Source: Vitis vinifera (lineage: Eukaryota > Streptophyta > Magnoliopsida > Vitales > Vitaceae). Taken from it: a stretch of 64,000 nt of DNA. The stretch spans positions 4,046,001 through 4,110,000 of the forward strand of contig NC_081813.1 of the NCBI RefSeq assembly GCF_030704535.1. The letters are read 5' to 3'. The position numbers and the translations under genes are program-made. The notes under the pieces are model-generated. The model was not told the origin of the DNA. It made no database searches and worked only from the letters and a program-made list of their open reading frames with translations. Shown one piece after another: positions 111-62,149 of the stretch. Every line of letters begins with the position of its first letter. Within the stretch, counting starts at the first letter, position 1.

Positions 111-3100
111 ATGGAAGAAAGTGAACCCCCCAAATTTCCGGCGTTTCCATATGAGCCCTATTCGATTCAGATTGATTTCATGAAAGCCCTTTATCGCTCT
201 CTCAATAAGGGTGGTGTTTCTATGCTCGAAAGCCCCACTGGTGAGGCTCACTCACACTCTCTGTTTGGTTTCTGAGAAAAAGGAGGGTAAGAAGTGGGAA
301 AATGATTTTTGTATGAGATTTTTGGGTGTGTGAAATTGTAAGTAGTTAAATATTTTGAGATTTAGGATTTTGTTTTACTGCGTCTTCGATGATTCTGGGT
401 TGCTTAATTTGAATCATTTTAGCATCTCTCACATAAAGTTAATATGGTGTTCGAGAGATATCGTGTATAGTCTGCTTGATTGGTGAGAAAACAGAGGAAT
501 TCAAATGAGAAATTCGGATTCAACTAAGATAAGTAACTGTTTTAGGCTTAAATTAAGGGGAAAATTTTCTTTTTCCAGAACCTAAAATTGGAAATTCAAG
601 AAGTGGGATTTTGCTATATTTTCTTTTTTACATGTTCTTAGGCTTAATGGTTTTTGTTGGCTTAATTTGGAATCCCTTGTCGCTACAGGGACTGGCAAAA
701 CTCTGAGTATAATTTGCAGTGCTCTGCAATGGCTTGTTGACAGGAAGCAACAACTCAAATCTGAAGCCAATCAGACTCAAACACCTGGAGGTGGAACTGG
801 TTCAGACGATGAACCCGACTGGATGAAAAACTTTGTCGCAAACAAAGATCCTGCAGTGGAGGACAAGATGAAGAAGAAGCTAAGGTTTGGAAAGGAGAAA
901 CCAGATAAGGGAAGGAATCAAGGAAGTTGCAGAAACCTGTTATCACCTAATCTTGTAGAGGAAGGTATTCATGAGAAGAAAGATAGTGAGAATCTGGGGG
1001 AAATTAATGGGGTGGAATTGAATGATGAAGAGTTCTTGGTGGAAGAATATGAAAGCGAAGAGGAAGAGGGTGTTGGTGTAGGGAAATCAAAGAGGAAGGC
1101 TGGTGGGGTTTCTATAAATTCATCAAGTGATGAGGAAGAGGAAGATGACAACGAGGAGGATGGAGAGGGATTAAAGATTTATTTCTGTAGTCGGACCCAC
1201 TCACAACTGTCGCAGTTTGTGAAGGAGTTAAGAAAGACTATTTTTGGTAATGAGATGAAGGTTGTATGTTTGGGCTCAAGGAAAATTTCCTGCATCAATG
1301 AAGGTAAACTAATATTTAGAACGTGTTGAAATGTCATGTAGAAAGTAAACTGCTTGATTGGTTTCTGGATAATTTTTTATACAGTTCAACAGCATGAATA
1401 CAGACATAACAGAAAAGTGGCAGCTGTCATGAAAAGTGATGATAAAAATTTCAATCTTGGCATTTCATGAAATTTCAAAACTGATCTCATGCCTTCAGTT
1501 GTGTTATCTCCATTTTTTTTCATGGTCTATTCTTGATCATGGATTACAATCTTCAAGCCCCATATAAGGAAAATATCTTAATTTTCAGGGGATGCCCAAA
1601 CATGGCTTACTGAACTAATAAAATTGAACTTAATGCAAATTTGACATTGTTTGGGGGGTTCTGTTTCAGAGGTTTTGAAGCTGGGAAACTCTACTCGTAT
1701 CAACGAACGGTGTTTGGAGCTTCAACAGAACAAGAAAAAAGAAGTTTCCAAACTTAAGGTATCATACATTGCTGTTCATGTCAGTTTGGTGGTTAATTTA
1801 ATCCATGAATCTTTTTTGTTTTTCTGATAACTTGAACTTTGAGCATCTTTTTGAACTGAAAATTATAGATGCTTTATTTTACTGTGGGATTTTTATGATT
1901 ATGCTATGAATTTGTACTCTTTCATTTGAAATAAATGGGCAGATTTGTGAATGAACTGACTTGGAGCATGCCCTCATTGTTCCATTCAAGCTTGTAAAAG
2001 GATTTTCTTTTTATCATGATTGAAATAACTGTGTTGATTTTGATAGAACTTGGGTTCAGAAGGAAGAATACGTAGGACCAAGGCTTCTTCTGGATGCCCA
2101 ATGCTTAGAAATCATAAATTACAAAAGCAATTTAGGAGTGAGATTTCACAAGAAGGAGCTTTGGATATTGAAGACCTTGTGCACCTTGGAAGAAGGATGG
2201 GAACTTGTCCATATTATGGCTCCCGAAGCATCATCCCAGCAGCTGATCTTGTGGTTCTTCCATATCAGTCTCTTCTATCAAAATCATCCCGCGAATCACT
2301 TGGTCTGAATTTGAAGAATAACATTGTTATAATAGACGAAGCTCACAATCTAGCCGATTCTCTCATTAGCATGTATGATGCAAAAATCACTTCCTCACAG
2401 GTAAGAGAAAAAGAATTATCCATCTCCATTTTTATGTAAGCATCATTGTTGCTTCTGAAAGGCAGGTTGCCAGCCTGGTATTGGGTGTTAATTTGACAAT
2501 TCTTTTAAGCCTCCTCTTAGCTAACATTCAGATTTCAATCTTTAATACCCTAATCAGTTTGAATTGTTGGCTTTTGATTATTATCTTAGAATTGAATATT
2601 CAAAAATTGGTAATATTTGGTGTTTTTTCTACTCAGTTGGAGCATGTGCATTCTCATATAAAGCAGTATCTGCAAAGATTTCGCAATTTTTTAGGACCTG
2701 GCAATCGAAGATATATCCAAACATTATTAGTCGTCACCAGGGCTTTTCTTCAAATTCTTCTTAATGGTAAGGATACAAGTTTGGTTGATCCTGGCCATGA
2801 TGCTGAAAAAGCTTTTGGAGCGAAAAGTGCCTCTGATTCTTCTATGGCCATTAATGATTTTTTGTTCTCTCTCAATATTGACAACATCAACTTGGTCAAA
2901 TTGCTACATTATATAAAGGAAAGCAATATCATCCACAAGGTAATTGCTTACTACCACCATTTATCTATTCGTTGCTACCCAGTTCTGTTAATTCTTTCTT
3001 TCCTGCACTTTCCCATTTAAGAAGATATCTCTATTTTGTTTGCCAGGTAAGTGGTTATGGAGATAAAGTGGCCTACTTGCGAAAAGGTTCAGCCCTTAAT

Positions 3101-5030
3101 GATGGTGGAGAAAGTAATGAGGAGGGAAGTACTTTGTCTGGATTTCGGGCATTTGTTGATATGTTGCAGTCACTAACAAATAATGATGGTGACGGAAAGA
3201 TAATAATCTCAAGGGCAAAACAAGCATGTTCTGGACAACAAGGAGGATATCTAAAATATGTTATGCTCACAGGGGAGAAGATTTTTTCTGAGGTTTGTTT
3301 GAAATTCAGTACTTTCGCATGCCTGGATTTTTCATAGATTAGGTTTTTATTTGACAATAATGAAAGTTTGATATCTGAATATAGATTGTGGATCAAGCAC
3401 ATGCTGTCATACTGGCAGGAGGAACCCTGCAACCAATTGAGGAGACAAGGGAGCGACTATTCCCATGGTTAACATCTGATCAGTTCCATTTCTTTTCATG
3501 CAGTCACATTATCCCTCCTGAGAGTATTTTGCCTGTTGCTCTTTCTCATGGCCCCTCTGGCCAGTCATTTGATTTTAGTTACAGCTCCAGAAGCTCATCA
3601 ATCATGGTGAGTGCATTACAGATTTACTCTTCTTTTGATGGGGATTACTCTGATAATCTTCATTCTCTGATAGCACCATTTATTCAAGTTTATTGTTTGA
3701 GTGATCGACTGTGTATTTTACTTCTGCCTAGAACAGCTATTTCAGTGTCATTCGTTCCATTCCATGTATAATTTTATAGTATTCTGAAGCAAGATCCATG
3801 TCTCAACTTTATTGGAAACAGAAGTTTCTGTTGTTACTTCTGAAAAGTTTTCACATAGATCATGATTGGTCGCCAACTAAACTATGTTGTTGGGCTTGAA
3901 ATTGCAGATAGAGGAGCTAGGACTCTTGCTTTGCAATTTGGTGACAGTGGTTCCTGAAGGAATTGTTGTGTTCTTCTCTTCATTTGATTATGAAGGACAG
4001 GTCCATGATGCATGGAAGGCTTCAGGCATTCTTGAGAGGATTATGAAGAAGAAGTGTGTATTTAGAGAGCCTAGAAAAAACACAGATGTGGAATTTGTTC
4101 TTAAGGAATACAAGGAAGCAATTGATAAATCATCTGACAGGAATCAGAAAGAAGATCCAGTGCCTCAGAATGGTGCTATACTCCTAGCTGTAGTCGGTGG
4201 GAAGATATCAGAAGGTATCAACTTCAGCGATGGGATGGGTCGATGCATTGTCATGGTTGGACTGCCCTACCCTAGTCCATCTGACATTGAGTTGTTGGAG
4301 AGGGTGAAGTATATTGAAGGCCTGGGAGTCTCAATCTCCAGCCGATCAACAAAGTTTTCAGTTGGTAATGAATATTTCAGTGGAGATGTCCAAGTTGGGT
4401 TCGACATCCTACGAAGTTGCAAGCATAGAGGAAAAGAATATTATGAAAATCTTTGCATGAAAGCTGTAAATCAATCAATTGGTGCGTCTAAACTACTCTA
4501 CTTATCTGCTGAAAATCATATGCAAGTTGATAGACCACAAGGATGGTTTACCAGGACTATTCATAATGCCTTGGGTGCAGAAGCTGTTCCTAAGTTGGAA
4601 CCTGGCCTAACCAGTTCTCCAAAACATCACATTTTTTATACAATCAGAAATGAATTTGGTCTAGTCCTTAGGGAAATGCTAGTGATTAAATCTCTAGAGT
4701 CATCTAATAAGCCCAGTTTGTGTGTGTGTTGTTTACATGTAATAATACATACCCAGTGGCGTTTACTATTAATTTTTACTGATATCTGTACCTTATCTTT
4801 GATTGTCTGTTTTAGGTAGAGCAATTCGGCACATCAATGACTACGCTGCAATTTTGTTGGTTGACGCACGATATGCATCCGATCCTTTAAAAAGAAGCTT
4901 CTCTCACCCAACTAACAAGCTCCCACAGTGGATAAAAGATTGTCTTGTACCTGTAACTGGCAAATATGGAGAAGCACACAGGCTGCTGCACCAGTTCTTC
5001 AAATTCAACAAGAAGAGAGGCTGTCAGTAA
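111..5030 (+). CDS. CHL1: ATP-dependent DNA helicase, CHL1/DDX11 type (XPD-like Fe-S helicase)
   Basis: Nine exons join in frame to 915 aa: 111-240, 689-1303, 1670-1758, 2047-2400, 2637-2939, 3047-3292, 3385-3606, 3908-4481, 4816-5030. Seen: the Walker A motif PTGTGKT (about residues 42-48) spans the first intron. An acidic insert rich in Glu/Asp follows. Four spaced Cys (in CINEE, ERCLEL, SGCPML, GTCPYYG) form the Fe-S cluster signature of the XPD/FANCJ/DDX11 group. Walker B is IIDEAHN (DEAH about 375-378), followed by LAGGTLQP, GGKISEGINFSDGMGR and GRAIRHINDYA. Family knowledge: a 5'-3' DNA helicase acting in sister-chromatid cohesion and at forks, in the nucleus. The start at 111 was chosen because the protein then begins just ahead of the conserved FPYEPYSIQIDFM helicase N-terminus. 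An in-frame ATG at 45 would add 22 residues. Length matches the family and no lesion is seen. Confidence 0.93.
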
Positions 5031-8235: not shown

Positions 8236-10540
<2,305 letters not shown>

Positions 10541-12045: not shown

Positions 12046-18860
<6,815 letters not shown>

Positions 18861-30329: not shown

Positions 30330-31356
30330 TATTTACATGATTGTATTTTTAACTATATAAATTAGAATTAATTGGATAAAAGGGATAAAATAATTTTCAA
30401 AATTGTGAATTTAACTTTTTGAAAAATAATTCATTTTGACATAAATGTTTTTTACTATTTGGAGTATTTACATGTAAGTTTTTTTTTCTTTTTTTTATAA
30501 AAAGAGTTGTGTTTTTTTTATAAAAAAAAATAGTGGGGACATTTTTGTCAAAATGAGGTAAAAAATAATGAAGGGTTAAATTTCCAAAATTGAATTTTGG
30601 ATATCCTTTTAATCAAATAATCCTATAAATTATGTAATTTTGGTTGTTTGGTTTATTCTATTGAATTTCTAATGTTAGGAATTAAATTCAAATGCCAAGA
30701 AAAAGCATAGTGAAAATTGGTCATATCACATCAGCCAAAGCCATCTAAGGTGCCAACAAAGTGTGAAGGAAAAAAAAAAGTGTTTTCATGACTTATTTAA
30801 AAATATATGTAAAATAAGAATTCATCTCTTCATATTTTAAATCATATCCCATGATTCCAAAATACTAAAATCTATTTAAAAACTATTTTTAAAAATAAAT
30901 TTTTGTTTTTAAAAAATAAAAAACTAATTTTCAATCCTCAAAAGAACTTTTGAGAATTTTTTGACAAAATAATAAGAATCTGTGTGGTTTAAAAACAGTA
31001 ACTGTTTTTAAAAGATTTTAATACTATTTGCTTGTTTTTTGAAAATAATTTTTAAAAATAAAGTGAAATAAAAAACAATTTTTAGATAATAAGTAGGAGT
31101 TATTTTTATTAATTTTTAAAAATAAAATAAATAATAGGTTTGTTTAACCATGAAACTTGTTTTTAAGTTAAAAAATAAAAATTAATTTTTGAAAATAAGT
31201 TTCCAAAAATATAATCAAAATGACCCTAATTTTCTCACAACATGTTATAAAATCATGTTTAGGAACTTTTTTTTTTTAAAAAAAAAAAAAAATTGTTCTA
31301 AAAAAATCTTTTTTGAGAATGGTGTTTGGGAACTGTTTTTAAAGGCTCAATTTTTT
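30330..31356. other. AT-rich intergenic DNA
   Basis: A/T-rich with many short homopolymer runs. No gene or terminal repeat recognised. Confidence 0.5.
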
Positions 31357-31357
31357 T

Positions 31358-31654
31358 TTGTCAAACTCTTCCGATGGAGGGGACACGCACGCCCTTATAT
31401 CTGAGGGATTGTACGTAGACCCAATTTTGAGACGCATGGATAGAAGTGTCCGGCACCTCATGCGTGGTGTGAAGTTATCAGATGAGGGCACTCCGTACGA
31501 AGAGAAGGTGTTCTGGTGTACTATTTCTTTAAGCACCATGACCCTCGCCATCAGGGGACCTACCCTGGGTAATAAGACACGGGCACCCAGCACCCTCAAG
31601 AAGGTATTGCCGTATAGGACGCTCGCACCCATCTACCCTTTCTTTTCTATTTAA
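31358..31654. other. GC-richer island of unknown origin, open on both strands
   Basis: About 270 bp (31370-31640) stand out from the surrounding AT-rich DNA by higher GC and near-normal codon-like composition. A + strand frame of 98 codons and a - strand frame of 97 codons both span it. Neither shows a recognisable domain. It may be a captured or inserted gene or transposon fragment; no repeats were found at its edges. Confidence 0.35.
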
Positions 31655-31742
31655 ATTAAATTATTCATTGAATATATGATTAAATATATATTTTTATTTT
31701 TATTATTTTTTAAAAATGAAAAATATTGGTAAAATAAGAAAA

Positions 31743-31977
31743 CTCTCTAGAATTTTCCAGGTATTAATTAATTACTTCTTTAATTATTATTGAGAATTAA
31801 TTGCTTTTTAAAGTGTGTAGAATCCTCCATGACAGGATGCCAGTCTGAAGAATGAAAACCTAATTCAGAGAGAAGAAAAGAAGCTTCTACACTTCCATTC
31901 TCCACCGACTTTCCTCGCCTCGTAACCTCACTGAATTTTCTGGAATTCTCATAACCCAGATTCTCTTTTTATATATT
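31743..31977 (+). promoter_or_regulatory. PDX1.2 promoter: heat-shock-element-like sites and TATA box
   Basis: The best site is GAAttTTCtgGAAttCTC at 31933-31950: four alternating units with only the last off by one base. Two further GAAnnTTC pairs lie at 31750-31757 and 31880-31887. A TATA box (tatatatt) begins at 31970, about 20 bp after the four-unit site and about 110 bp before the start codon. A CTT microsatellite follows (31978-31994) in the probable 5' UTR. Heat-shock factors bind inverted nGAAn arrays, and Arabidopsis PDX1.2 is known to be heat-induced; binding here is inference. Confidence 0.6.
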
Positions 31978-32080
31978 CTTCTTCTTCTTCTTCTCTCCCG
32001 CGTTATCAAACTTGAGACCTGGTTTTTCGTTCGCGTTTCTCATTTCTTCGTTGTCACAAATTCACAAGCGCTTAGCGGCC

Positions 32081-32962
32081 ATGGCTGAAGAAGGCGTGGT
32101 TACGGTCTACGGAAGCGGCGCCATCACCGACCCTGCCAAGACCTCCTTCTCCATCAAGGCTGGAATGGCCCAGATGCTCCGCGGCGGTGCCATTTTCGAA
32201 GTCATGAATCTGGATCAAGCCAAGATCGCTGAGGAAGCCGGAGCTTGTGCCGTCATCGTATCGGAATCGGTTTCCAAGGGCATATCGAGGCTGATTGATC
32301 CCGCTGTGATCAAGGAAATCAAGCGGAGAGTCGCAATTCCGGTGATTGCGAGAGCGCGGGTTGGGCATTTCGTGGAAGCGCAGATCTTGGAGGCCATTGG
32401 CGTGGACTATATTGATGAGAGTGAACTGTCCGTTGCTGATGAAGATAACTTCATTAATAAGCATAATTTTCGAACTCCGTTTGTCTGCGGCTGTCGGGAT
32501 CTTGGTGAAGCGCTTAGGAGGGTGAGGGAAGGGGCTGTGATGATCCGGATTCAGGGGGATTTGTCTGGGTCCGGGAACGTTGCTGAGACGGTTCGGAATG
32601 TGAGGAAAGTGATGGGGGATATAAGAGTGCTAACGAACATGGATGATGACGAAGTCTTCGCATTTTCGAAGAAGATAGGTGCAGCTTATGATGTTGTGGC
32701 CCAGACCAAGGAAATGGCCAGGCTTCCGGTTCTGCATTTTGCAGCCGGAGGCATCGTCACCCCTGCTGATGCCGCTCTGATGATGCAGTTGGGGTGCGAT
32801 GGAGTGCTTGTGGGTTCCAAAATTTTTGGCTCTGCGGATCCTTATAAGCGAGTTCGGGCAATTGTTCAGGCTGTTAGGCACTACAACGATGCGCAGGTGT
32901 TGGCAGAGAGTTGCTCTGAATTGGATGTGGCAGTGGCGGACCTCAGAATCGTTGAGGAGTAG
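32081..32962 (+). CDS. PDX1.2: PDX1.2-type pyridoxal 5'-phosphate synthase subunit (pseudoenzyme)
   Basis: A single exon of 293 aa from ATG in gccATGG context. The PDX1/PdxS (beta/alpha)8 barrel is complete: [77 protein letters not shown] and [18 protein letters not shown]. Two catalytic lysines of active PDX1 are replaced: the AKARIGHF Lys is Arg91 (IARARVGHF) and the RTKGEAG Lys is Gln158 ([13 protein letters not shown]). Arabidopsis PDX1.2, a non-catalytic partner that assembles with active PDX1 subunits and supports vitamin B6 synthesis under heat, carries the same changes. The C-terminus is shorter than in catalytic PDX1, ending at VEE. Heat-shock-element-like sites lie upstream. A decayed duplicate lies 4 kb downstream. 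Confidence 0.95.
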
Positions 32963-33703
32963 GGATAGAACACTCTGCAATTGGAGGTCAGTGTTCCGCC
33001 CTAACCTCGCCCTTTTGGATCTAATATGGAGGCTATACTTAGACTTTCGTCCAATTGTTGTGTTGATTTTGCAATAAGAACTGAAATTCTGTGTTATATC
33101 AACTTGTGTCGTAATACAGAAATCAATCAGAATAAATCTGTAGTTGAGTTCACTGAAAGCATATAAGCTGATTAATTCACTTTAGAGAATCCATGTAGAA
33201 TGACATTTCTGATTTGTGAATACAATCTGTTGTTGAAAAAACCCAAAAAAAAAAAAAAAAGAAAAAGAAAAAGGGAAAAAGAAGGATGATTGATCCTTCA
33301 AACAGAGGGAAGATAAAGGTGTGATCCATTCATTTGATGGTGAATATGGTTATTACAAGAAGCCCAGATGCATGGTGGGCCAAGATGCTTATTCATTCAA
33401 TTGCTTCCATGGCTACTATTTTAATGAACATATGACCCACCACAATCAGTGCCAAAATGTCCTTTGCTGGTGATTGATTTGTTCCTTCTTAGATTGTTTG
33501 TTCTGTCCGGTTTAAATGCTATTATCTCTGGAGAGATACATGCATCCAGTAGAATTGTAACAATTGTTATGTACAAACCTTTTCTTCTTAACATTCCAAT
33601 GTTTTTTTTGTGATGAAATAATCATGATGGAGCAATTTTATCAGTCTACCTGATCCCATTTTACTGAGAAAATACTTTTTCTTCTAAACTGCGGTCTGTT
33701 GGA
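32963..33703. other. PDX1.2 3' flank, part of a segmental duplication
   Basis: The stretch from 32995 to about 33200 aligns with 36780-36990 downstream of the PDX1.2 pseudogene (shared ggatctaNtatggaggctatacttaga and acagaaatcaat/aagaataaatc blocks). The duplication therefore extends past the coding region into the DNA leading to the BAC2 copy. No other gene. Confidence 0.7.
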
Positions 33704-34457
33704 ATGCTTCCATTACCTAAGAGCAATTTCTTAGGCTACGGAAACAGCTCCATTGACCACAAATGCTCTACTAACACCTGTTCTTAATCCTCACTTTTAC
33801 ACCATGTCCTTCCCCTTTTACACTCTTTTATCAAACAGTCAATGCCGATATATCTTTGTGGGGAAGATTGTGATTGAACGCTGCCACAGAAATCCCTAAA
33901 TGAAAGAAGTTTCTGGAGTTGCAACTATGAAAGAATGATTGCAGAGTGGTCTCTTAGATACAGTTTTAGTAGTCAAGATCTAGCACTAACAACTCAGCGG
34001 TTTCTTGTTCTGTTTTCGGTAACTTAATAACAAACAGATAACAAGCCCATAATATGGTTTTGTGAGGGTTAGCAACAAACCCACCTTTCAACTCCTGCTA
34101 CTCCTGCTCTAGCATTGTTCCCAACCTTTCTTGTTCGGTCCTTTGGCAGCCTGGGAGAAGCTGTTCTCGCATGTATTTCTAGGTTTGGAAATACATTCCA
34201 TGAGAGGGAGCATCTCTGTTGGTTAAACTTCAGTTCATTCCCCATAAACCCTTTGGGCCCTAATGACAGTCTGCAGGGTGGGTTTTTGCATAGCTTTTGA
34301 TCTTTAGTTGGGGCCATATTTTACCTTGTTCAATATGGCTCCGCTTCAAACACCTCCTAGACCCAACACCTTGTGTAGGAAGGAGGATCTTTGGCAGGGA
34401 ACAACGAGTCAGCTGTTGAGAGGGCAGCATAGATCTGGAAACCATGGCATTCTGCAA
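33704..34457 (-). pseudogene. Pseudogene of BAC2 (last exon only), left duplicate
   Basis: Aligns with the intact BAC2 exon 2 at 37332-38033. Recognisable matches include the end of the exon (ggcattctgcaat at the acceptor side), a cctgggagaagctgttctcgcatgta stretch, and gaccacaaatgctctact. Many substitutions, short indels and an unrelated insertion of about 190 bp (about 33860-34050) destroy the frame. Conserved carrier motifs are interrupted. No first exon is present. The homology continues into the intron beyond the acceptor (34458-34690 against 38040-38275), so this is a DNA-level duplicate, not a retrocopy. Confidence 0.85.
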
Positions 34458-35776
34458 TTTGAAGTAGATTAGCCAGCAAGGTGAACCCCACTAGAAATTT
34501 TTACAGTTAATTTCAATTTAAGACAGTACAGGTTTTGGGGGTTCGGATTTTTCTTTTCCAAAGTCGATGGTGAAACCTACACAACGTGTTGCAATTATCT
34601 AAACCAGTTCTCTATTGAGTCCCGAGCCTGGTACGTGTGTTTTCAGGGGCACATAAATTACTGCACAACTCTGTACGTGAAGGTAAAGCTGTTTCTTGAT
34701 TTCATTCAGTCAATTTAATTGTTGAAATTGATTATGACTTGGTTCATGGGTATGTGTGTACGATTCTTAACATCTTATCCACTGTGAAAATCTGCAAGGA
34801 GCCAAGGACTAAGGCCTTCTTTCCAAACTGTAACCGTTCTAAAAAATAATTTTTAAAAATAACTATCTAATATTTATATCATTTTTTTATTTATTAAAAA
34901 GTAATATATTTAAACTTTCTATATACAGTTTTATAAAATAATTTGAACTTCAAAATGATTTAATTAATTATATATTGAATTAAATTTCTCCAAAATATTT
35001 TATATTTGATTGGTTTATATATTAAAAAATTAAATACTATTTGTTTTAAATAAAATATCATTAGCTATTTTATTTAAATTATTATAATTTACTTTTAATA
35101 AAAATCAATTATGCTTTTACAAAATCTATACTAGGATGAATCCTATGTATTCAACACTTGTAAGGAAGAGGGGTGAATAGTCGATAGTCTATCCTTCATG
35201 GATTTTTTCTATGTATTCTTCTCCTCGCCTCACCGTCGAAACTCCACTAGTTAATTCACCTTCACAAACACTTGGACTAGATTTAATTTGTAAAATAAAA
35301 TAAAAAAATGAAATGAAGTATATATTACTTTTTAATATCCAATATTTGTTTTAAAAAAAATGATATTGCATTCAAATATTTATTATTTAAAAAAAATATG
35401 AAATTTCTCTTTAAAATTTTAAAATTTATCATATATCAAATAATATATATTAGTATTATTTTATAAATACTTTTTTTTTTAGTTTTTTATTCATAAATTT
35501 AACTTTTAATAATTCTTTTTTGTTTTATAAAATAAATAATGTAGAAAATAAAAATTGATAAAAAAAAGATAAATTTATGATACATGGGATGGGTACATCA
35601 TATATAAAAAAAAGAGTGAATAATATATTTGATTACTAATTCATTGAATATAAGATAAGATAAGATAAATTACAATATATAATGGTTAGCAACAAACATG
35701 AAAAATATGGTATCTGCACTTTCAACTTAACTCATGCAATGTCTAGTCATGAGTCAGATGGTTGAAGGCTTAGTCA
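34458..35776. other. Intergenic: duplicated BAC2 intron piece, then AT-rich DNA
   Basis: 34458-34690 is homologous to the BAC2 intron at 38040-38275 (shared agacagtac and ttgcaattatct blocks). After about 34830 the DNA is AT-rich with no recognised gene; the junction between the two duplicated segments lies somewhere in this interval. Confidence 0.6.
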
Positions 35777-36749
35777 TCGCCAAACCCAAAAGAGCTTCTT
35801 CTCCATTCGGAACAACTATGATGCTTTGAGGCAGTGCTAGTTTCCAAGTCACCTATCTTAATAATTAAAGATTGCTGAAGAAGTCGGAACTTGTGTTATA
35901 TTTGTGACATCTCATATAAGATAGGAGAGAAAATTTTTAGTGTTGTATAAATATGAACTCCTTTTAATATTGCAGACGCGTTTTAAAGTTATGAAGGTTC
36001 TTTGGACGTAGATCAAATAATATCTACATAGTTGGGTACAAGTCATTACAAATGGTATCAGAGCTGAACCCTAACCTCGGGGGTTTGCTCATGAGATATA
36101 ACGAAGATATTGTGTCTGCATGGGAGTGTTTGTGACACAAACAACTCACATCGGATAAGAGGAAAAGTTTCTAGCATTATATAAGTATGAACAACATTTC
36201 ACGATTGAGAATTTTGATATTGGAATCAATTTCCAAGTGCACCTCAAGGCTAATTGATCCGGTTGTGATCAAGGAAATTAGGGGAGTGCCTCAATTCCGG
36301 TCATTGCGAGTGCTGGTGCTGTGCATTTCGTGGAAGCAAAGGTCTTGGGAGTATATTGATGAAGTGAATTCTCTGTCGTCGACCAAACATGACTTGATTA
36401 ATAAGCATAATTTTTCGACTCCATTCATCTGTGGCTGTCGAGATATTGGGAAAGCGTTAGGGAAGGGGCTGTAATGATCTGGATTCAAGGGAATTTATCT
36501 GGGTTGGGGAATGTAGTTGAGACGGTTCGGAATGTGAGGAAAGTCATAAGAAATGGCTAGGGTTCCGGTTCTGCATTTCGCAACCGGAGCATTGTCACGC
36601 CTGATGGAGTGCTTGTATTCGAAAATTTTTGGTTGTGCGGTCATTATAAGCGAGATCAGGCAATTGTTCAAGGCTCAGATGTTGGCAGAGGGTTGCTGCG
36701 AATTGGATGTTGCAATGGCGGATCTTAGAATCATGGAGGAACAGGGTTA
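35777..36749 (+). pseudogene. Pseudogene of PDX1.2, right duplicate, split by a TRIM
   Basis: Aligns piecewise with the intact PDX1.2. The 5' part (about 35777-35902) ends in aagattgctgaagaagtcggaa. A TRIM relic follows, and homology resumes near 36209 (ggaatcaatttccaagtgc) through aataagcataatttttcgactcc to gcggatcttagaatcatggagg. Frameshifts, stop codons and two deletions of about 95 and 35 bp (near 36545 and 36598) disrupt it, and no long frame survives. It keeps the Gln-type IQG sequence in the GDLSG block, so it descends from an already non-catalytic PDX1.2. Confidence 0.88.
35903..36208 (+). mobile_element. Truncated TRIM inserted in the PDX1.2 pseudogene
   Basis: The left LTR 35903-36050 (148 bp, TGTGACATC to ATTACA) is followed at once by aatggtatcagagct, the initiator-tRNA-Met primer-binding site. 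The interior ends gtgtctgcatgggagtgt, and a second LTR start at 36131 (tgtgacac, then acatcggataagagg) breaks off after about 70 bp. Layout and interior match the 24162-24573 family, in the opposite orientation. It is older than that copy, given the divergence. Confidence 0.85.
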
Positions 36750-37331
36750 GGACAGTTTGCAAATGGAGGTCAGATTTTTACCCTAACCTCCCTTTTTGGA
36801 TCTAGTATGGAGGCTATACTTAGAATTTTGTTGAACATTTCTGTCTATCTTGCAGTTCGATCTTACACTCTTATTTCATTACATCAACTTTTGTTTCAAT
36901 ACAGAAATCAATAAGAATAAATCAGTAGTTGAGTTCACTAAAATCATATAGGCAATTCAATTCACAGAAACCACACGGATTGACGTTATTCATTTGTAGA
37001 AAGAATCTGCTATAAACAACAATTTTATTGAAAAACGAATAGAAGGATGACCCACAGCCCCTATAATGAACTGGGTTGAAAAATCATTGGTCCACTCGTT
37101 TGATCATTGATGTGGTTATTACAAGAAACTGAGTACCAAATACCTGATTTTTGACACCTCCAAGTTGCTTATTCATTCAATTTCTTGCATGAATAAAACT
37201 TTAATGAGTATGTGAACCATTTCTTCATGACTATGTATAAACCATCTCTTCATAATATTCCTATGTCTTCTGCTATGAAATGATCATCATGTAGCTATGA
37301 TACCCGTTGGTGAGAAAAGACCCTTTGTCTT
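36750..37331. other. Duplicated spacer between the PDX1.2 pseudogene and BAC2
   Basis: Homologous to 32963-33703 as described for that segment. It also holds the BAC2 3' UTR (minus strand). Confidence 0.6.
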
Positions 37332-39704
37332 CTAGCCTGTGTTCTCTGTTTGAATGGTTCCATGACCATTGTTGTTACATAAGTACCTAAGAGCAAATTC
37401 ATAGGCAGCAAAAATGGCCCCATTGACCACAAATGCTCTACTTACAGCTGTTCCTAATCCTCTCCAGAGTACACCCTGTCCTTCCTCTTTTACACTCTTC
37501 ACAAAACAGTCAACAATGCCACTGTATTTTTGTGGGGAAGATGATGATTGAGCCTGTAATCGGGTTTTTACAACATCTAAAGGGTAGCAACAAACCCAGC
37601 TCGCGACTCCTGCTAGCCCTCCTGCTACTAGCATTGTCCTCAAGCTTTCTTGTCCAGTCTTTCGGCAGCCTGGGTGAAGCTGCTCTCTCATGTACTCATA
37701 GGTCGAGAAATAGACTCCATGAGAGGGCGCGTCTCTGAGTACTGTGATGGTTAAACCTCGGTACAGTCCCCGGATACCCTCTGTTCTACATATGCTTTTG
37801 ACGACACTCACTGGACCCTTATAACAGTTTGTTGGTTGGGTCTCTCCATAGCTTTTTCTCTGTAGTTGGAGTCTTATTTTAACTAGCTCAACAGGAGCGA
37901 GCATTAGGCTCTGTATGGCCCCAGTTCCAACTCCTCCTAGAGCAACACCTTTGTAGGAAGGAGGGTCTTTGGCAGCAACCAATGGGTCACATGCTCTTGA
38001 GAGATCGGCATAGATTTGGAAAACCATAGCATTCTGCAATGTGAAGTAGATTAGTCAGCAAGGCTAAGGTCACTGGAAACTTCTGCACCAGATTTCGATT
38101 TAAGACAGTACTGGTTTGGAGGGTTAGATTGTTTTTTCAAAGCCCATAATGTAAGCTACATAGTGTGTTGCAATTATCTGATCCAGCATTTTTTTTTTTG
38201 AGTCCCAACTCTGATATCTTTGTTTCCAGAGGCACATATATATCACTGCAGAACTTTATACTTGGAAGGCAAAAGATTTTCTATATTAGTCTCTTTCAAT
38301 AATCTAATTCATAAGGCAGGGTATAACAAGTACATTTGTTGGGAGCAAAGATTAAAACATCAGAAATTATAGAAATATTAGTCGTCAGAATTTATGAAAA
38401 TAAAAAAAATATATGGAATGGGTCATATCTTATCTTGGGTGAGAATCCACAAGGACTAATAAGTTGATGATATGTTAGGCAATTAAGGCCAAATTTCATC
38501 CACAGACTTAATTCCATCAAGTGGTTTAGCATCAATTTGTGGTGCCCATATCCTTAGTTCCAAACTGGCTTCACCACAAGTTGGTGAAAGAGACCAATCA
38601 TAAGTGAAGCTCTATTATACATCACCCACAAATTCCCATAGGGGTCTCAAATCATAATTGAAAAGCGTGACGGCTTCTTTTAAGTTGGAAAGTCATTTTT
38701 CCTATCAACCGTATGATGTCATGTCCACACCTTCTTGTTTGCATCATTTTATGTCTTGATTTCATTCGTTTGTATCCTTATTCAACAACTTAAATATTAA
38801 CATTCGTAATTGTATTTTCAACTATTGAGATGAACAGTTTGATAGATATCGAGAGGGTTCAATCAACCTAATCATACAATTTTTCCGAAACTTATGTTAA
38901 CTATTTTGTCTTATAAGCTTTTTCTTAGAATTCTTCAACCATTTAAAAAAAAATTGATTTAAACCGGTGCAAATTAAATGAGAAATAAAAATGTGACCCT
39001 TCCTTCCTAGAAATACCAAACTCTATTATTGAGGAATTTGTCTATTACGAAACGAAAAGGTTAATGCACAATGTCCATCCTATCAGTTAGAAAATGACAT
39101 TTCCCAAAAGACAAAAAAGGGGAAAGGCATGGCAAATTTTATGATCATAACCAGTGCTGCAGACACCATATCATTTTTCAGAATTCACTTCTCACAGAGG
39201 CGGGTCAATGAAAGATTCCCAAGAAGCAAACAAAACTTAAAATTCAAAAGCTTTAGAAAAAATGGAAAAAGAATTCCCAAATCTCAAGTGGTTAGAAACA
39301 GTTCATTGTTTACATCTTGATAAGGCCCTGATCTTCACCCATAACAATTTCCACAAGTTTTGCTTCTCTCAGAAGAGTCATAACCAATCTCAAAAGCATC
39401 AACATCGATCTTGAAGGAGGAATCAGAATTCAGAAGAAAAACCATGAAAAGTGAAGAAATCAAAACAAACCTGAAAGGTGACAGAAGCGAGAGGTGCGCC
39501 CATGCCTCTGTAGAGAGCACCAGGGCCCTCGGTGGCTATCACTCTCCGGAGAATGGTCATGGCGGAGCCACTCCTCGAGTGCTGCTGCATGATCCTCAAG
39601 CTATCAAGTGGGTATCCAGACACCACGCCCGCCATGCCACCCAACCCTCCTGCCACAAACTCCCTCCCCCAACTGCTTGCAAGAAACTCTGGCCAGAAAT
39701 CCAT
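37332..39704 (-). CDS. BAC2: Mitochondrial basic amino acid (arginine) carrier, BAC2 type
   Basis: Two exons, 39704-39471 and 38033-37332, joined in phase 0 give 311 aa. The start MDFWPEFLASSWGREF matches the known plant start. The three mitochondrial carrier repeats are visible, each with its Px[DE]xx[KR] signature: GYPLDSLRIM, APVELVKIRLQ and CYPLDVVKTRLQ; GLYRGLTITVLRDAP and LWRGLGTAVSRAF close repeats two and three. The family sits in the inner mitochondrial membrane; Arabidopsis BAC2 transports arginine and other basic amino acids and responds to stress. The 1.4-kb intron 38034-39470 shares homology with the flank of the left BAC2 pseudogene. The gene is intact, unlike the duplicate copy. 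Confidence 0.93.
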
Positions 39705-40060
39705 TCTTCTCCCACTCCCATTCCCCAACCCCACTTCCCAATTCTTCCTTTTCTTTCCTACTCCACCACCTGATAGCTTACACAGAAAGAGAGAAACTTT
39801 TAGACAACCCTGGAGGGTTTCTGCCTCGCTTTATTTTCTGGTTTTTCTCCTGAAATGAAAGGAAATGAAAACAAAAGGCTAAATCCACCAGTGCTATTTT
39901 GTTGGATGTGGGTGGTGAGGGGAAATGGGCAACGTCCTACTTTCAGAGACGCCCAAGGGTGTCTGCCCACGTGGGTCCAATGGGTGGTGTGTGCCTAGTG
40001 TTAACCCACCTTTGATCGGCCCAACCCAGATAGTTTTGAGTGGCGGGTGACGCCACAGAG

Positions 40061-40104
<44 letters not shown>

Positions 40105-40465
40105 GGATGTGAATCATGGGGATTTGAACCATATATTATTAAGAATTCCCGTGGAGATAGTGGTGTCAAGAGATATGTTGGGTTGGATTTTTGTCATAAG
40201 AAGTGAGCGTGAGTGTGAATGTGACCACACCTCCATTATTTGCTCCAAAAGGCTTTTCCTCTTTGGTCTCAGCCACCATGTCTTCCATTTTCTAATTTCT
40301 CAAATTAAAATTTTCCTTTCTTCTTCTTCTTCTTCTTCTTCTTCTTCTTCTTGAAAGAGTTTATTACATGTGGGAAAAGTACACCCCTATATGACCTGGA
40401 AGATGAAAGGGATAAGAAAGAATCCCGCCTCTATCTGGTTTTATACCAAATTTGGCCGGGCGTTT
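39705..40465. other. BAC2 upstream region with two microsatellites
   Basis: It holds the BAC2 leader and promoter (minus strand). A (GA)n run followed by a G run lies at about 40060-40106, and a (TTC)n run at about 40318-40352. Serine-rich frames over the TTC repeat are artefacts. No other gene. Confidence 0.6.
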
Positions 40466-42520
40466 TCAATGTCATTATATTTGCAAAAAGAATTCATAAA
40501 GTATATGGAGGAAAGTGCCTTTTTGCCCCCTCTACTATGATGGTTGAATGAGGGCATTTTAAGAATTGGCCTCAAAATCTTAAATATTTTTTAATTATGA
40601 GTTAAGCCCTGTACTGTAATTTTCTAAATATATAAAATTAAAAATTATTATACAATGCAAATATGTATACTAATGTTTTAAAATCTTATTTGAAAAAATT
40701 TATTAACTTAAATATAATTTTTAAGGTATTTAGATAAAACTCTTGAATATAGGTCTCGTATTTTCTAATATGATTTAAGTCCTGTCTAGGTACTTCTTAA
40801 AAAAGTTGGGTAATCTAATGAAAAAACTAAATCATTGTGGAGATGGGCGGAGCATAACCAAAGGAAAAGGACTTCCACAATGTTGTCAAGAAACACTTTT
40901 TATTTAACTAAATTTCAATATTTTTAAAAGTTATTATTTATTTAAATAAATAATTTTATCCAAAGCATAAATAAAATCAAATAAATCTACTTCTACTTCT
41001 TGGACCATACGAGTCATGACATGGTGACATAGACATGGTATATGTCATGTATCGTAGGATGAATGATGACATATGTCATGTGTCTTGGTATGGATTATGA
41101 TGACATCATGACATGGATTGTAACACGCGTCATGGCACAACATGGCCATGTGTCTTAAAAACAAAAAATTAAATCATGTTCCAAACATATTCTAGAAAAC
41201 ATAAATTTAGAGATGAATTTATATTTTATACTTACATCAAATTAACAATTCTTAATAAAAATAAAATAAAATAAACATGATGGGTCCCATGATGATACGT
41301 AGTGTGAACCCAATCATATGACGTCACATATACATTGTAGGTTTTATTGATTGGTATATAAATCCGTTCTATTATTTTGTAATTTGATTTCATTTATTTA
41401 TATATTCATTTTTTTTTGTATAAGAAGAGAAATTGTAAATAAAAGTAAAACATGGATCCGAAAAATCCAACCCGACCCGATCCATCTGGAAGCCCTAGTC
41501 ATCAATGTCATTATATTTGCAAAAAGAATTCATAAAGTATATGGAGGAAAGTGCCTTTTTGCCCCCTTTACTATCATGGTTGAATAAAGACATTTTAAGA
41601 ATTGGCCTCAAAATCTTAAATATTTTTTAATTATGAGTTAAGCCCCTGTAATGTAATTTTCTAAATATATAAAATTAAAAATTATTATAGAAATCAAATA
41701 TGTATACTAATGTTTTAAAATTTTATTTGAAAAAATTTATTGACATAAATATAGTTTTTAAGGTATTTAGATAAAACTCTTGAATATGGATATCGTATTT
41801 TCTAATATGATTTAACTCTTGTCCAAATACTTCTTAACAAAATGGTGTAATCTAACGAAAGAATCGAATTATTGTGGAGATGGTGCAGAGCATGCTGAGG
41901 GGACAAGAACTTCCTCAATGTTGTCAATAATTATTATAGAAGAAACACTTTTTACTTAACTAAATTTCAATATTTTTAAAAGTTATTATTAATTTCAATA
42001 AATAATTTTATCCAAAGCATAAATAAAAGCAAGTAGATTTACTTATACTTCTTAGACCATACGAGTCATAGCATGGTGACATAGGCATAGTATATGTCAT
42101 GTATCGTACAATGGATGGTGACACATGTCATGTGTCTTGGTATGGGTTATGGTGGCATCATGACACACATCATGGCACAACACGGGCCATGTGTCTTAAA
42201 AACAAAAAATTAAAACCTGTTCCAAACATATTCTAAAAAACATAAATTTAGAGATGAATTCCTATTTTATACTTACATCAAATTAACAATTCTTAATAAA
42301 AAAATAAAATAAACATGATGGGTCCCATAATAATACATAGTGTGAAACCAGATATATGACGTCACATATACATTGTAGGTTTTATTTCCATTATTTTGTA
42401 ATTTGATTCCATTTATTTATGTTTTTTTTTTTTGTGTATAAGAAGAGAAATTGTAAATAAAAGTAAAACATGGATCCGAACAATCCAACCCGACCCGTTC
42501 CATGTGGAAGCCCTAGTCAT
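40466..42520. repeat. Tandem duplication of a ~1.03-kb unit
   Basis: Copy 1 40466-41501 and copy 2 41502-42520 are head to tail, starting tcaatgtcattatatttgc and ending with agccctagtcat-type sequence. They remain alignable along their whole length with scattered substitutions and small indels (for example 15-20 bp near 41341). Each copy carries an A/T part and a catg/gacat-rich part (around 41010-41150 and 42060-42190). No coding capacity. The right edge lies about 80 bp upstream of the next start codon. Confidence 0.92.
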
Positions 42521-57987: not shown

Positions 57988-60904
57988 TTATCTAGCTTCC
58001 ATCACAGATATTGATACAATATTAAGAGAACAATTCTCTGAGTTTCTTTTAGGGATCTCTAGCTCTTGTTCAATTCCCCTGATGAAAAATGCAGGTTGCT
58101 TTGGGATGGATAGTTGCATACTTTCGTTCGCAAGCATAAGAACAACATCTGACATAGTGGGTCTATCTTTTGGATTTTCTTGCACACAAAGGAGTCCCAC
58201 ATGGATGCATCTTTTCACTACATTATTAGAACTCGGACCATCACATAATGTTTGATCCATTAATTCTAACTCTTTACCTTCTTTCCACAATTCCCATGCC
58301 TGAACAACATACAAAGTTGTACAATATATATGATAAATTATTTCTATACAAATCAATAAGTCTTATTCCTAAAGCGTAAGATGGAAGTAAATTAGGATTT
58401 AGAAAACTTACATATCCTATGAGGTTGAGAGGACGTTCATAATGATAATTACTGTGGTTCTTTTTGCTGCTCACAATCTCTAGTAGCAATACTCCAAAGC
58501 TAAATACATCAGATTTTGTAGAGAAAATGCCTTGCATGACATACTCTGGTGACATGTAACCACTATAGTAATAATTAAGCAAACTTTGTTAGTATTTAAG
58601 TCATAAGCTAAATTTAGTATGAGCTCGATTATAGAAGTGGTATACACTTACTATGTTCCAACAACTCTATTTGTATTTGCTTCACATTCATCTTGACCAA
58701 ATATTCTAGCCATACCAAAATCTGATATCTTGGGATTCATTTCATTGTCTAATAAAATATTGCTAGCTTTCAAATCTCTATGAATTACTCTTAATCTAGA
58801 AAATTTGTGGAGATAAAGAAGTCCTTGAGTAATCCCTTCAATGATATTATAACGTTTCTTCCAATTCAATAAATTCTTTTTGCTAGGATCTGTCCATAGA
58901 AACATCAAAAAATATATATATAAGAACAATCAAAATTAATTACCCAAATAAATATATAATGTAAAAATAGAGACAAAGTCAAGTTTAAAGATTACCACCA
59001 AAGATGAAGAAATCCAGGCTCTTGTTTGGCAAGTACTCATAAATTAGTATCTTTTCTTCTTCTTTAATGCAACATCCCAAAAGTTTAACAAGATTATCAT
59101 GTTGGAGTTTTGCAATGAGGGCAATCTCATTTTTGAACTCAACCAATCCTTGTCTTGAACTTTTTGAAAGCCTCTTTATTGCTATTTCTTGTCCATCGAG
59201 TAACTTTCCCTGAAATCATTTTTATTTAGAGATGATATCGTGGATCAATTTAGTAGAAGTATATGACGTTAATTTACCTTATATACGGGTCCAAAACCAC
59301 CTTCTCCAAGCTTATTTTCAATTGAGAAGTTGTTTGTAGCAGCAGCTAAGCTTTGAAAGCTAAATAGTTGCAACTCATTCGTTTTCTTTCCAACCTTTTC
59401 ATGTTTCTTTGAATTGTGCTTGGTAAAAGGTTTTGTAATAGCTCCCAATTCAAATAGTAGCTCTTGTTGTCTTTTGTTCTCCTCTATTGAGTGTAAATTA
59501 AAGTTAGGACATCTAATCAATGTATGGTAAAACTATTAGGAGAAATTTTGGTCTATATGTTTGTGAAAACTTACCTTGTAGCTTCAGCTTTTTCCATCCT
59601 AAACAGCACAAAGAGCTTGCAAGAAGTATAATAACTGCTCCGCCTGCAGCAGTAACGAGCCATATCCACCACATCTTTCTTGCAGCTGCATTAGCAAACA
59701 ATTAAGACATTTTTTTTTTTTTTTTGAGTAACATGTTTTTCTCTTGGAAAGAAATGATATTACCTTTATCGGTTTGAAGGACGTAGATCTGTTGGGATTC
59801 TCCTACAAAATATTTTCTGGGTTGTATTCGGCTCCAAATTACACAACGAGTTTCAGCGAGATGAAGGGAAAAGGCAACACAAGAGCAATTGTTCCAGCAC
59901 CTGAAATGGCAATCCACAGAGGTCGCGTTGTCATCGAACATAAATCCTTCGGAAACTACATAACCACCATCAGTATATTGAAACCGCTGTGATGCCGGAT
60001 TTCGACACTTCGGCAAATCCGGCTTCACACATCCTTGCCGTTCAATGTGGGATTCACAGTGAACGTAGGTTCTAAGCAAACTCTTGAGAACTCCCGATGG
60101 TAGCAAAACCAACATTGGGAAAAACACGCTTTCGTTCGGATGAAAGCTGAAGTACATTTCTTTCTTATTTGACATATAGCGAAAGCCGTATCCATCATTC
60201 CAATGATCTTTCTGTGGTAAAGAAGCTCGAAGGTTGTCGAAACTCAAATTCCCATTGTGCCAAAACCCGCTGGTCCAGTAGATCTTCCCTCTCCACCATG
60301 TGATTAATTGGCTGTTATTACGGAAATCTGCGCCAAAAGAAAAATACCCGGTAGCAGGAATCTGATTAGTTAGCCAGGAAGTCAATGACCACTGATGCCC
60401 AGTTCTCAAATTGATACCCAGTTTCATTCCTGGAAGAAGTGTGTCCGTTGGATAATCAAAGCTTTGCCACAAAACCCGTGTTGTTCCATCTGACATATGC
60501 TCTCTCAATATAAAGTTCCCATTATCCTGTAGAATAGCACTTGTATTGCTTGCTATTTGACTGTAATTTGATACAGCAATGAAGCCTCCGTTGTATGTGA
60601 TTTTTAACTTCCAAGCATGGTCAATCATGAGATTTCCGGATGTGTCTGGAACTGGATCATTCCGGTTAGCAACCCAGACTCTCCTCACCTCGAAGCTGGT
60701 GTACCATATTCCTAAATAGCGGTTGTCTGAAGAACCTTGCGTGAAGAAGCCTAATGTGAAAGCGTAGTTAGCAGAAACCAGGCGCTCCCAGTCTCTTAGA
60801 GGTTTGCCTTGTAGCAGCGTGTCTCTTGTTGAATAACAAGTACTTAAGAAGAGGAAGAAGCAGGAGAAAGTGAACGGGATGAGGATTCTTCCTTTGACAG
60901 CCAT
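57988..60904 (-). CDS. G-type lectin S-receptor-like serine/threonine-protein kinase
   Basis: Seven exons (minus): 60904-59764, 59685-59575, 59483-59278, 59209-58996, 58889-58652, 58562-58412, 58299-57988; 790 aa. Order of parts: signal peptide (about 1-25); B-lectin domain with [21 protein letters not shown]-domain block [22 protein letters not shown]/apple-like region ([15 protein letters not shown]); transmembrane segment [20 protein letters not shown]; kinase with [15 protein letters not shown] (ATP Lys), [22 protein letters not shown] and TYGYMSPEY, and the usual tail [12 protein letters not shown]. All catalytic residues are present. The class sits in the plasma membrane and includes self-incompatibility and immune or symbiosis receptors; the ligand here is unknown. 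It resembles the CES101/At1g67520 branch, judged from memory. Start ATG gives the signal peptide. Confidence 0.95.
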
Positions 60905-62149
60905 ATGACTGGACAGTCGTCACACAGCACAGAAATGTGTTACTATGAGCTTCTCTACTTATAGTATTTTGATGTGGGTTCTAATGGAAGGTGTAAGTGT
61001 ATGTGAGCATCCCTGATTTGAGACAAAGGCCTGCTAAGGACGGCAGGAATAATATGTGTATATATTAGCCACTAATTTTGACCTTGAATTGGAAATGCTT
61101 TCATCTGAAAGTGATGCCTTTGTAAAATAAAGAGAGCAGCTTGGAGAAGGAGCGAGAACTACGACCAATTCATGTTTGTCTTTCTAACTTGGCAGAATCG
61201 TAAGGACTAGGACCTCATCAAGGTCCAGTCATTGAAGTGAAAAATCCTATAAACAATGATTATTGCCCTGAGTTGTGAGGGGAGCTCGCACCTTACTTCA
61301 CCGGCCGAGCATTTTGGTTTCCATTTATAGAGCACAAAAGAAGAAAAATTCGCGGCTAGGCATAAATAAAATTGACTAAAAGAAGGAACGGTTAACTAGG
61401 CTTGAATTCCTGCAGTTGTAGTACAATTAGCCTGACAGATGGAGATCCTGCAGCAGCTCAGTTGTAGCTTTCTAATGTAGTTTATTGCCTTGAATTCCTA
61501 GTGTCGCCATATGTTCTGATATTTTGGTTTTTGGGCAGCGCGTTTGGTTTCTTCTCTTAAAGAATGAGACCATAGACCAGGTTTGTCTTGGTTCTTCAAG
61601 CTTGAATTTAAATAAAATATAATAAATTGGGCATGCATGGCCTATTTTGGTGAAGCATTAGGAAATCTTTGATTTTGGTGTCTTCAATTGTGCCCAAATC
61701 TTATTCAAACATATTTACTTCCTTTTCCCTTCTTTGACTTTTTCTTAATTTGTATTTCTTCTGTTTTTTTTTGTACAATAGCTTTCTTTTCTACATATAC
61801 AGAGACAGAACAATAGAATAACATACACAAGTTATGCCATTGCAAATCCAAAGTTTTCAAACCAACCCTATAAATATTTCAAAAGTTTAAATAGATCAAA
61901 CATTTGCCTCTGTGAATTGGTTTATATATATGCCATTGTCTAAGCCACCATGTTCCCACATCATCTTTATTAAATTGATTATTTCGAAATATGAGCCAGT
62001 TGAATAAGTATCAAATTGGAAAAATGATCCTTAAACATTTTTTTCCTTTATTTCTCGTGTTATTTGGTTAAAAATAACATCAACCCATCATTTCTTTGAA
62101 ATAAAATAAAATAAAATAACCCCGTAAGACAAAAGTATCATTTTCTTTT
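60905..62149. other. Receptor kinase upstream region
   Basis: Should hold the kinase promoter (minus strand). No coding exon or repeat ends recognised. Confidence 0.5.

Follow-up and report, generated by a model that had tools for sequence, protein, structure and literature searches.

INTRODUCTION

Partial tandem duplication can give rise to duplicated pseudogenes that are dead on arrival, lying as direct, colinear copies that include noncoding sequence, with frameshifts and stop codons in the inner copies. The available text of a survey covering five plants, one of them Vitis, reports an excess of tandem and proximal pseudogenes over functional loci, no excess of the tandem class in V. vinifera, and no clear tie between tandem or proximal pseudogenes and fragmented types (PMC7935947). 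Because of the last two results, the survey, as far as that text goes, does not itself show partial copies to be common. A second described pattern is the reciprocal (divergent) loss of duplicates, in which each copy retains the gene lost by the other. The term usually refers to separate losses of one and the same gene, at loci that differ from lineage to lineage.

The locus described here, which lies in a 64,000-nucleotide stretch of DNA (the window, meaning the whole stretch that was analyzed), resembles both. As in the first case, its two copies are direct and colinear and its inner copies are damaged; as in the second, each copy keeps the gene that the other has lost. It differs from the usual partial tandem duplicates in that the two ends of a single segment appear to cut two convergent genes, so that the broken copies would have arisen together, and from reciprocal loss in that the pattern can come from one event within one locus.

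RESULTS AND DISCUSSION

A local tandem duplication spans PDX1.2, the spacer, and part of BAC2

The locus consists of two segments that run colinear and in direct orientation through PDX1.2, the spacer, and the second exon of BAC2 into ~270 bp of the adjacent intron (Table 1). Global alignment of 32135-34718 with 35787-38307 gave 2,066 aligned columns, of which 79.3% were identical, and identity was fairly even along the segments (73 to 87% across 14 consecutive blocks). A blastn comparison of 31000-35200 with 35200-40500 returned four strong blocks along the segments (E values, 2e-108 to 3e-45), with weaker blocks also in the A+T-rich flanks. Among the best 20 of 43 direct-repeat families, those with spacings of 3.5 to 4.0 kb span both segments, and several others are A+T rich. 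For the spacer, the alignment score was 177, whereas shuffles averaged 23 and none of 100 came as high; for the BAC2 intron it was 122, a value reached in none of 266 background comparisons. The earlier note had proposed that the segments align through coding, spacer, and BAC2 intron sequence, and had staked its case on homology in the spacer and intron; both are borne out by these alignments. The segments are thus the product of a local tandem duplication at the DNA level.

A long-gap local alignment extended into A+T-rich sequence on both sides (31650-32121 and past 34718). Because these extensions did not rise above the A+T-matched background, they were left out of all counts; the weak intron match to 34812, an exception in this respect, likewise went uncounted.

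Table 1. Features of the duplicated locus (positions in the window)
Feature	Position	Strand	Remarks
Perfect three-unit heat-shock element, GAAnnTTCnnGAA	31933-31945	+	148 bases before the PDX1.2 ATG (-148 to -136)
Intact single-exon PDX1.2-like gene	32081-32962	+	Uninterrupted 293-aa frame
Left copy of duplicated segment	32122-34718		Detectable homology; weak extension to ~34812
Ruined BAC2 exon 2, without exon 1	~33684-34451	-	Frameshifts; 7 stops in 185 aligned codons
~167-bp insertion in ruined BAC2	near 33877-34043		From long-gap alignment
A+T-rich center between copies	34836-35757		82% A+T, ~0.9 kb
Right copy of duplicated segment	35775-38307		Detectable homology
Ruined PDX1.2	~35775-36749	+	Frameshifts, missing stretches, insertion
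Insertion in ruined PDX1.2, ~313-322 bp	35896-36217	+	Two 59-nt direct repeats with TGGTATCAGAGC between them
Intact BAC2-like exon 2	37332-38033	-	Open, joined to exon 1
Intact BAC2-like exon 1	39471-39704	-	ATG at 39704-39702; sole copy found in the window

Each copy carries one intact gene

The best solved relative of the left PDX1.2 is Arabidopsis PDX1.2 (6hx3; E = 2.5e-128), to which it is nearer (430 bits) than to PDX1.3 (403 bits) or PDX1.1 (393 bits) among the solved Arabidopsis proteins; it shares 194 of 287 aligned residues with PDX1.2. In catalytic PDX1 proteins, lysines occur where the window protein and Arabidopsis PDX1.2, a pseudoenzyme of vitamin B6 synthesis, both carry the stretches ARARVGH and RIQGD. 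The window protein is about three residues shorter than its Arabidopsis counterpart, internally and at the C terminus, and is otherwise unremarkable. Like the gene for the pseudoenzyme, the window gene has a single exon and a heat-shock element upstream. When the 200 bp ahead of the left PDX1.2 were base-shuffled 20,000 times, such an element arose, in either orientation, in 33 shuffles. The actual element lies near the position of the validated one of AtPDX1.2, given as -165 to -153 in the available text of PMC6829848. No heat-shock element of the perfect three-unit form was found at 34836-35786. The A+T-rich area upstream of the intact gene also holds an isolated open stretch of 103 codons (31343-31654, + strand) with no Pfam match.

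On the right, the BAC2 frame of 311 aa is interrupted by a GT-AG intron of 1,437 bp. It encodes a mitochondrial carrier, with a PF00153 (mitochondrial carrier) match in both exons and matches to solved carriers. Its identity as BAC2 (basic amino acid carrier 2) is putative: the name is suggested by the MDFWPEF-type start, and the earlier note named the gene likewise. The available text of a paper on AtBAC2 (PMC7408384) was of no help in naming the carrier.

The inner copies are ruined

In the left BAC2 exon 2, the alignment shows 19 gaps, 5 with a length divisible by 3 (the aligner split one insertion into several). The right PDX1.2 lacks stretches of 95, 33, 20, 14, and 10 bp and has 16 alignment gaps, only 1 a multiple of 3 (one insertion being split in three by the aligner), along with 2 stops in 196 aligned codons. 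The two PDX1.2 copies specify the same residue in 139 of these 196 codons; at the 57 that differ, Arabidopsis PDX1.2 agrees with the left copy in 34, with the right copy in 6, and with neither in 17, which points to the left copy as the constrained one. The direct repeats of the insertion in the ruined PDX1.2 are 234 bp apart and 73% alike, and their alignment score of 29.9 lies above the highest of 500 shuffles, 21.1. The string between them resembles a plant tRNA-Met primer site, so that the insertion looks like a small long terminal repeat (LTR) element, presumably of the TRIM type.

The layout of the locus described in the earlier note is thereby upheld: its intact genes, PDX1.2 on the left and BAC2 on the right, are open frames, and the spans that it gave for the ruined genes (33704-34457 for BAC2 and 35777-36749 for PDX1.2) are right within some tens of bases. 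From this layout it had argued for complementary decay, that is, a full duplication followed by the independent loss of the left BAC2 and the right PDX1.2. The abundance of frameshifts, stops, and insertions in both inner copies is in keeping with that course, and by our own reasoning independent random loss would give a complementary pattern in half of cases. What complementary decay alone does not account for is that both losses should have taken the inner 5' ends, which meet at the junction of the copies.

Detectable homology breaks off near the start of PDX1.2 and within BAC2 intron 1

At the PDX1.2 end, homology is first detectable at base 42 of the coding region (32122/35775). Comparison of 32060-32140 with 35700-35800 stayed within the range of shuffles, of which 31 of 100 reached its score, and so did that of the upstream region 31800-32080 with 35400-35757 (76 of 100); the ten bases at the ATG of the right copy (35758-35767) resemble the left start closely, yet not above shuffles. 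The longer upstream region 31000-32080 scored above 100 of 100 shuffles and 247 of 258 background comparisons when set against the A+T-rich center. Because 7 of 18 A+T-matched comparisons, a small control, reached the same score, we read this match as an effect of composition. A candidate PDX1.2 promoter remnant at 35120-35300, proposed from a shared ten-letter string, was rejected, as 159 of 1,410 background comparisons were as high.

At the BAC2 end, the weak intron match that continues to 34812 was equaled by 0 of 100 shuffles, 5 of 266 background comparisons, and 3 of 134 A+T-matched comparisons. BAC2 exon 1 with its upstream sequence (39474-39830), compared with 34720-35787, was equaled by 22 of 100 shuffles on one strand and 94 of 100 on the other, and the score of 39472-40200 with the center was attained in 168 of 258 background comparisons. 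A tblastn search of the whole window with BAC2 exon 1 (E values up to 0.01) returned only its own locus and the third repeat of the carrier in exon 2, and the earlier note's placement of this exon in the right copy alone therefore stands. The center shows no clear trace of BAC2 exon 1 or of the PDX1.2 promoter, and a search there for a recognizable transposon found only A+T-rich repeats among the 25 best of 86 inverted pairs. We infer that the center is an insertion. The old breakpoints are not exactly placeable, and the present limits of homology are taken here as the original ones.

PDX1.2 reads to the right and BAC2 to the left, so their 5' ends face outwards, and a tandem segment that ends inside both genes would leave the outer 5' ends single and the inner copies without 5' ends. 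We therefore think it probable that the locus arose by a single partial tandem duplication in an ancestral convergent pair of PDX1.2 (+ strand) and BAC2 (- strand). A segment of ~2.6 to 2.7 kb would have been copied once in tandem, with one end close to the start of the PDX1.2 coding sequence and the other inside BAC2 intron 1. It would have comprised the 3' parts of both genes along with the spacer, leaving both promoters uncopied. The resulting locus would have held a whole PDX1.2 on the left copy and a whole BAC2 on the right copy, with a BAC2 without exon 1 and a PDX1.2 without a promoter back to back in the middle. By the geometry of the segment alone, then, whole genes would fall on opposite copies and the inner pair would be broken. 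The two inner copies would have been dead on arrival and free to decay, and later insertions (the A+T-rich center and the small LTR-like element) would have increased the damage.

The same remains would be left today if the full pair had been duplicated with both promoters and a single subsequent deletion or replacement where the copies meet had removed the left BAC2 exon 1 and the right PDX1.2 promoter. The two lost pieces would have adjoined at the junction, so that one such event would be enough, and a ~0.9-kb A+T-rich block sits exactly there. This course takes one event more than a partial duplication, however, and the lack of a clear remnant of either piece also speaks against it; we regard it as a possible but rather unlikely history. 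Absence of the inner 5' ends from birth is indistinguishable from their old loss, and the dead-on-arrival reading is to that extent a possible one.

Divergence is compatible with a single old event

Divergence was counted without the columns before 32135/35787, and the intron class counts 265 columns, the last two coding bases among them (263 without these). Jukes-Cantor (JC) distances were 0.298 for the spacer (136/553), 0.275 for the intron (61/265), 0.268 for BAC2 four-fold sites (23/102), and 0.463 for PDX1.2 four-fold sites (38/110). The last class was nominally above the spacer (Fisher, 0.033) and the intron (0.028), and less so above BAC2 four-fold sites (0.068), in two sets of nine uncorrected comparisons each. 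With CpG sites dropped, the distances became 0.278, 0.247, 0.179, and 0.318, respectively; PDX1.2 four-fold sites (now 21/81) gave Fisher values of 0.58 against the spacer and 0.36 against the intron, and no comparison among the four classes fell below 0.13. PDX1.2 has a G+C content of ~0.5 in a window of 34% G+C, which makes CpG decay a plausible cause of its high four-fold divergence.

The earlier note held that clearly different ages of the two gene pairs would tell against one event. On this test the spacer, intron, and BAC2 agree within error (0.27 to 0.30), whereas the PDX1.2 four-fold value is nominally higher, an excess that is gone without CpG sites. These distances lend moderate support to the origin of both gene pairs in one old event. 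That excess is also what could be said for two unrelated duplications that placed the broken copies by chance, or for an artifact of assembly; colinear homology of spacer and intron at the same level argues against the former, and an assembly duplicate is very unlikely at 21% divergence, so that we give this pair of explanations hardly any credence. At assumed rates of 2.5e-9 to 6.5e-9 substitutions per site and year, a distance of 0.25 to 0.30 corresponds to ~19 to 60 million years.

The two pairs do not differ in zero-fold divergence (58/411 and 54/382; JC, 0.156 and 0.157), which is about half that of the spacer (ratio, 0.52 to 0.53 in both), as it should be if each pair had one copy that was free from the start. 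Measured against the spacer, zero-fold divergence thus fits inner copies that were never constrained and shows no clear period of constraint such as complementary decay might have left. The PDX1.2 four-fold yardstick (zero-fold/four-fold ratio, 0.34) would allow an early period of constraint and so leaves complementary decay some room. The BAC2 yardstick is weak, since zero-fold and four-fold sites are alike once CpG sites are dropped (50/364 versus 15/94; Fisher, 0.62). What endures of the earlier note's complementary decay is one local duplication with opposite survivors. Independent loss of each gene is possible but unneeded, given inner copies without a detectable BAC2 exon 1 or PDX1.2 promoter, and we judge it improbable as the history of this locus.

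Implications and genomic setting

The locus can be understood as an ordinary partial tandem duplication with two pseudogenes, in which the complementary pattern is explicable by geometry. As such it is a teaching case: opposite survivors after the duplication of a convergent pair need not imply two separate losses. The stop-to-stop distance of PDX1.2 and BAC2 would have grown from ~0.7 kb before the duplication to ~4.4 kb now, with inert remnants between the genes. It is conceivable, though we would put very little weight on the idea, that the duplication was kept as a spacer, the genes having moved apart in a way that freed a heat-induced gene and its neighbor from read-through or antisense interference with one another.

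The available text of PMC12279613 lists three grapevine gene models on chromosome 9 as PDX1.2 and cites heat induction for just one of them. The locus is also a caution to annotators here: if the window is grapevine, the remaining two models may be fragments of a pseudogene of this kind, and would then not be candidates for heat tolerance. The models Vitvi09g04108 and Vitvi09g04109 come into question as such fragments. A literature search found no paper joining PDX1.2, Vitis vinifera, and pseudogene, and a scan of viral contigs with PDX1.2 returned a single locus, whose best segment was 54% identical and which was uninformative here.

The genes of the window suggest plant nuclear DNA. A kinesin-13-like exon lies at 14065-14544 (- strand; best matches, Klp10A and KIF2). 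Arabidopsis PDX1.2, we presume, is also neighbored by a kinesin-13 gene, in which case the locus in the window would be the ancestral PDX1.2 locus. Elsewhere in the window there are a peroxidase-domain exon (8239-8754, - strand), exons with DEAD_2 and Helicase_C_2 domains (586-4816, + strand) from what we take to be an XPD/RTEL1-type helicase, and pieces with B_lectin, PAN, kinase, and DUF3403 domains (57991-60919, - strand), presumably of a G-type lectin receptor kinase.
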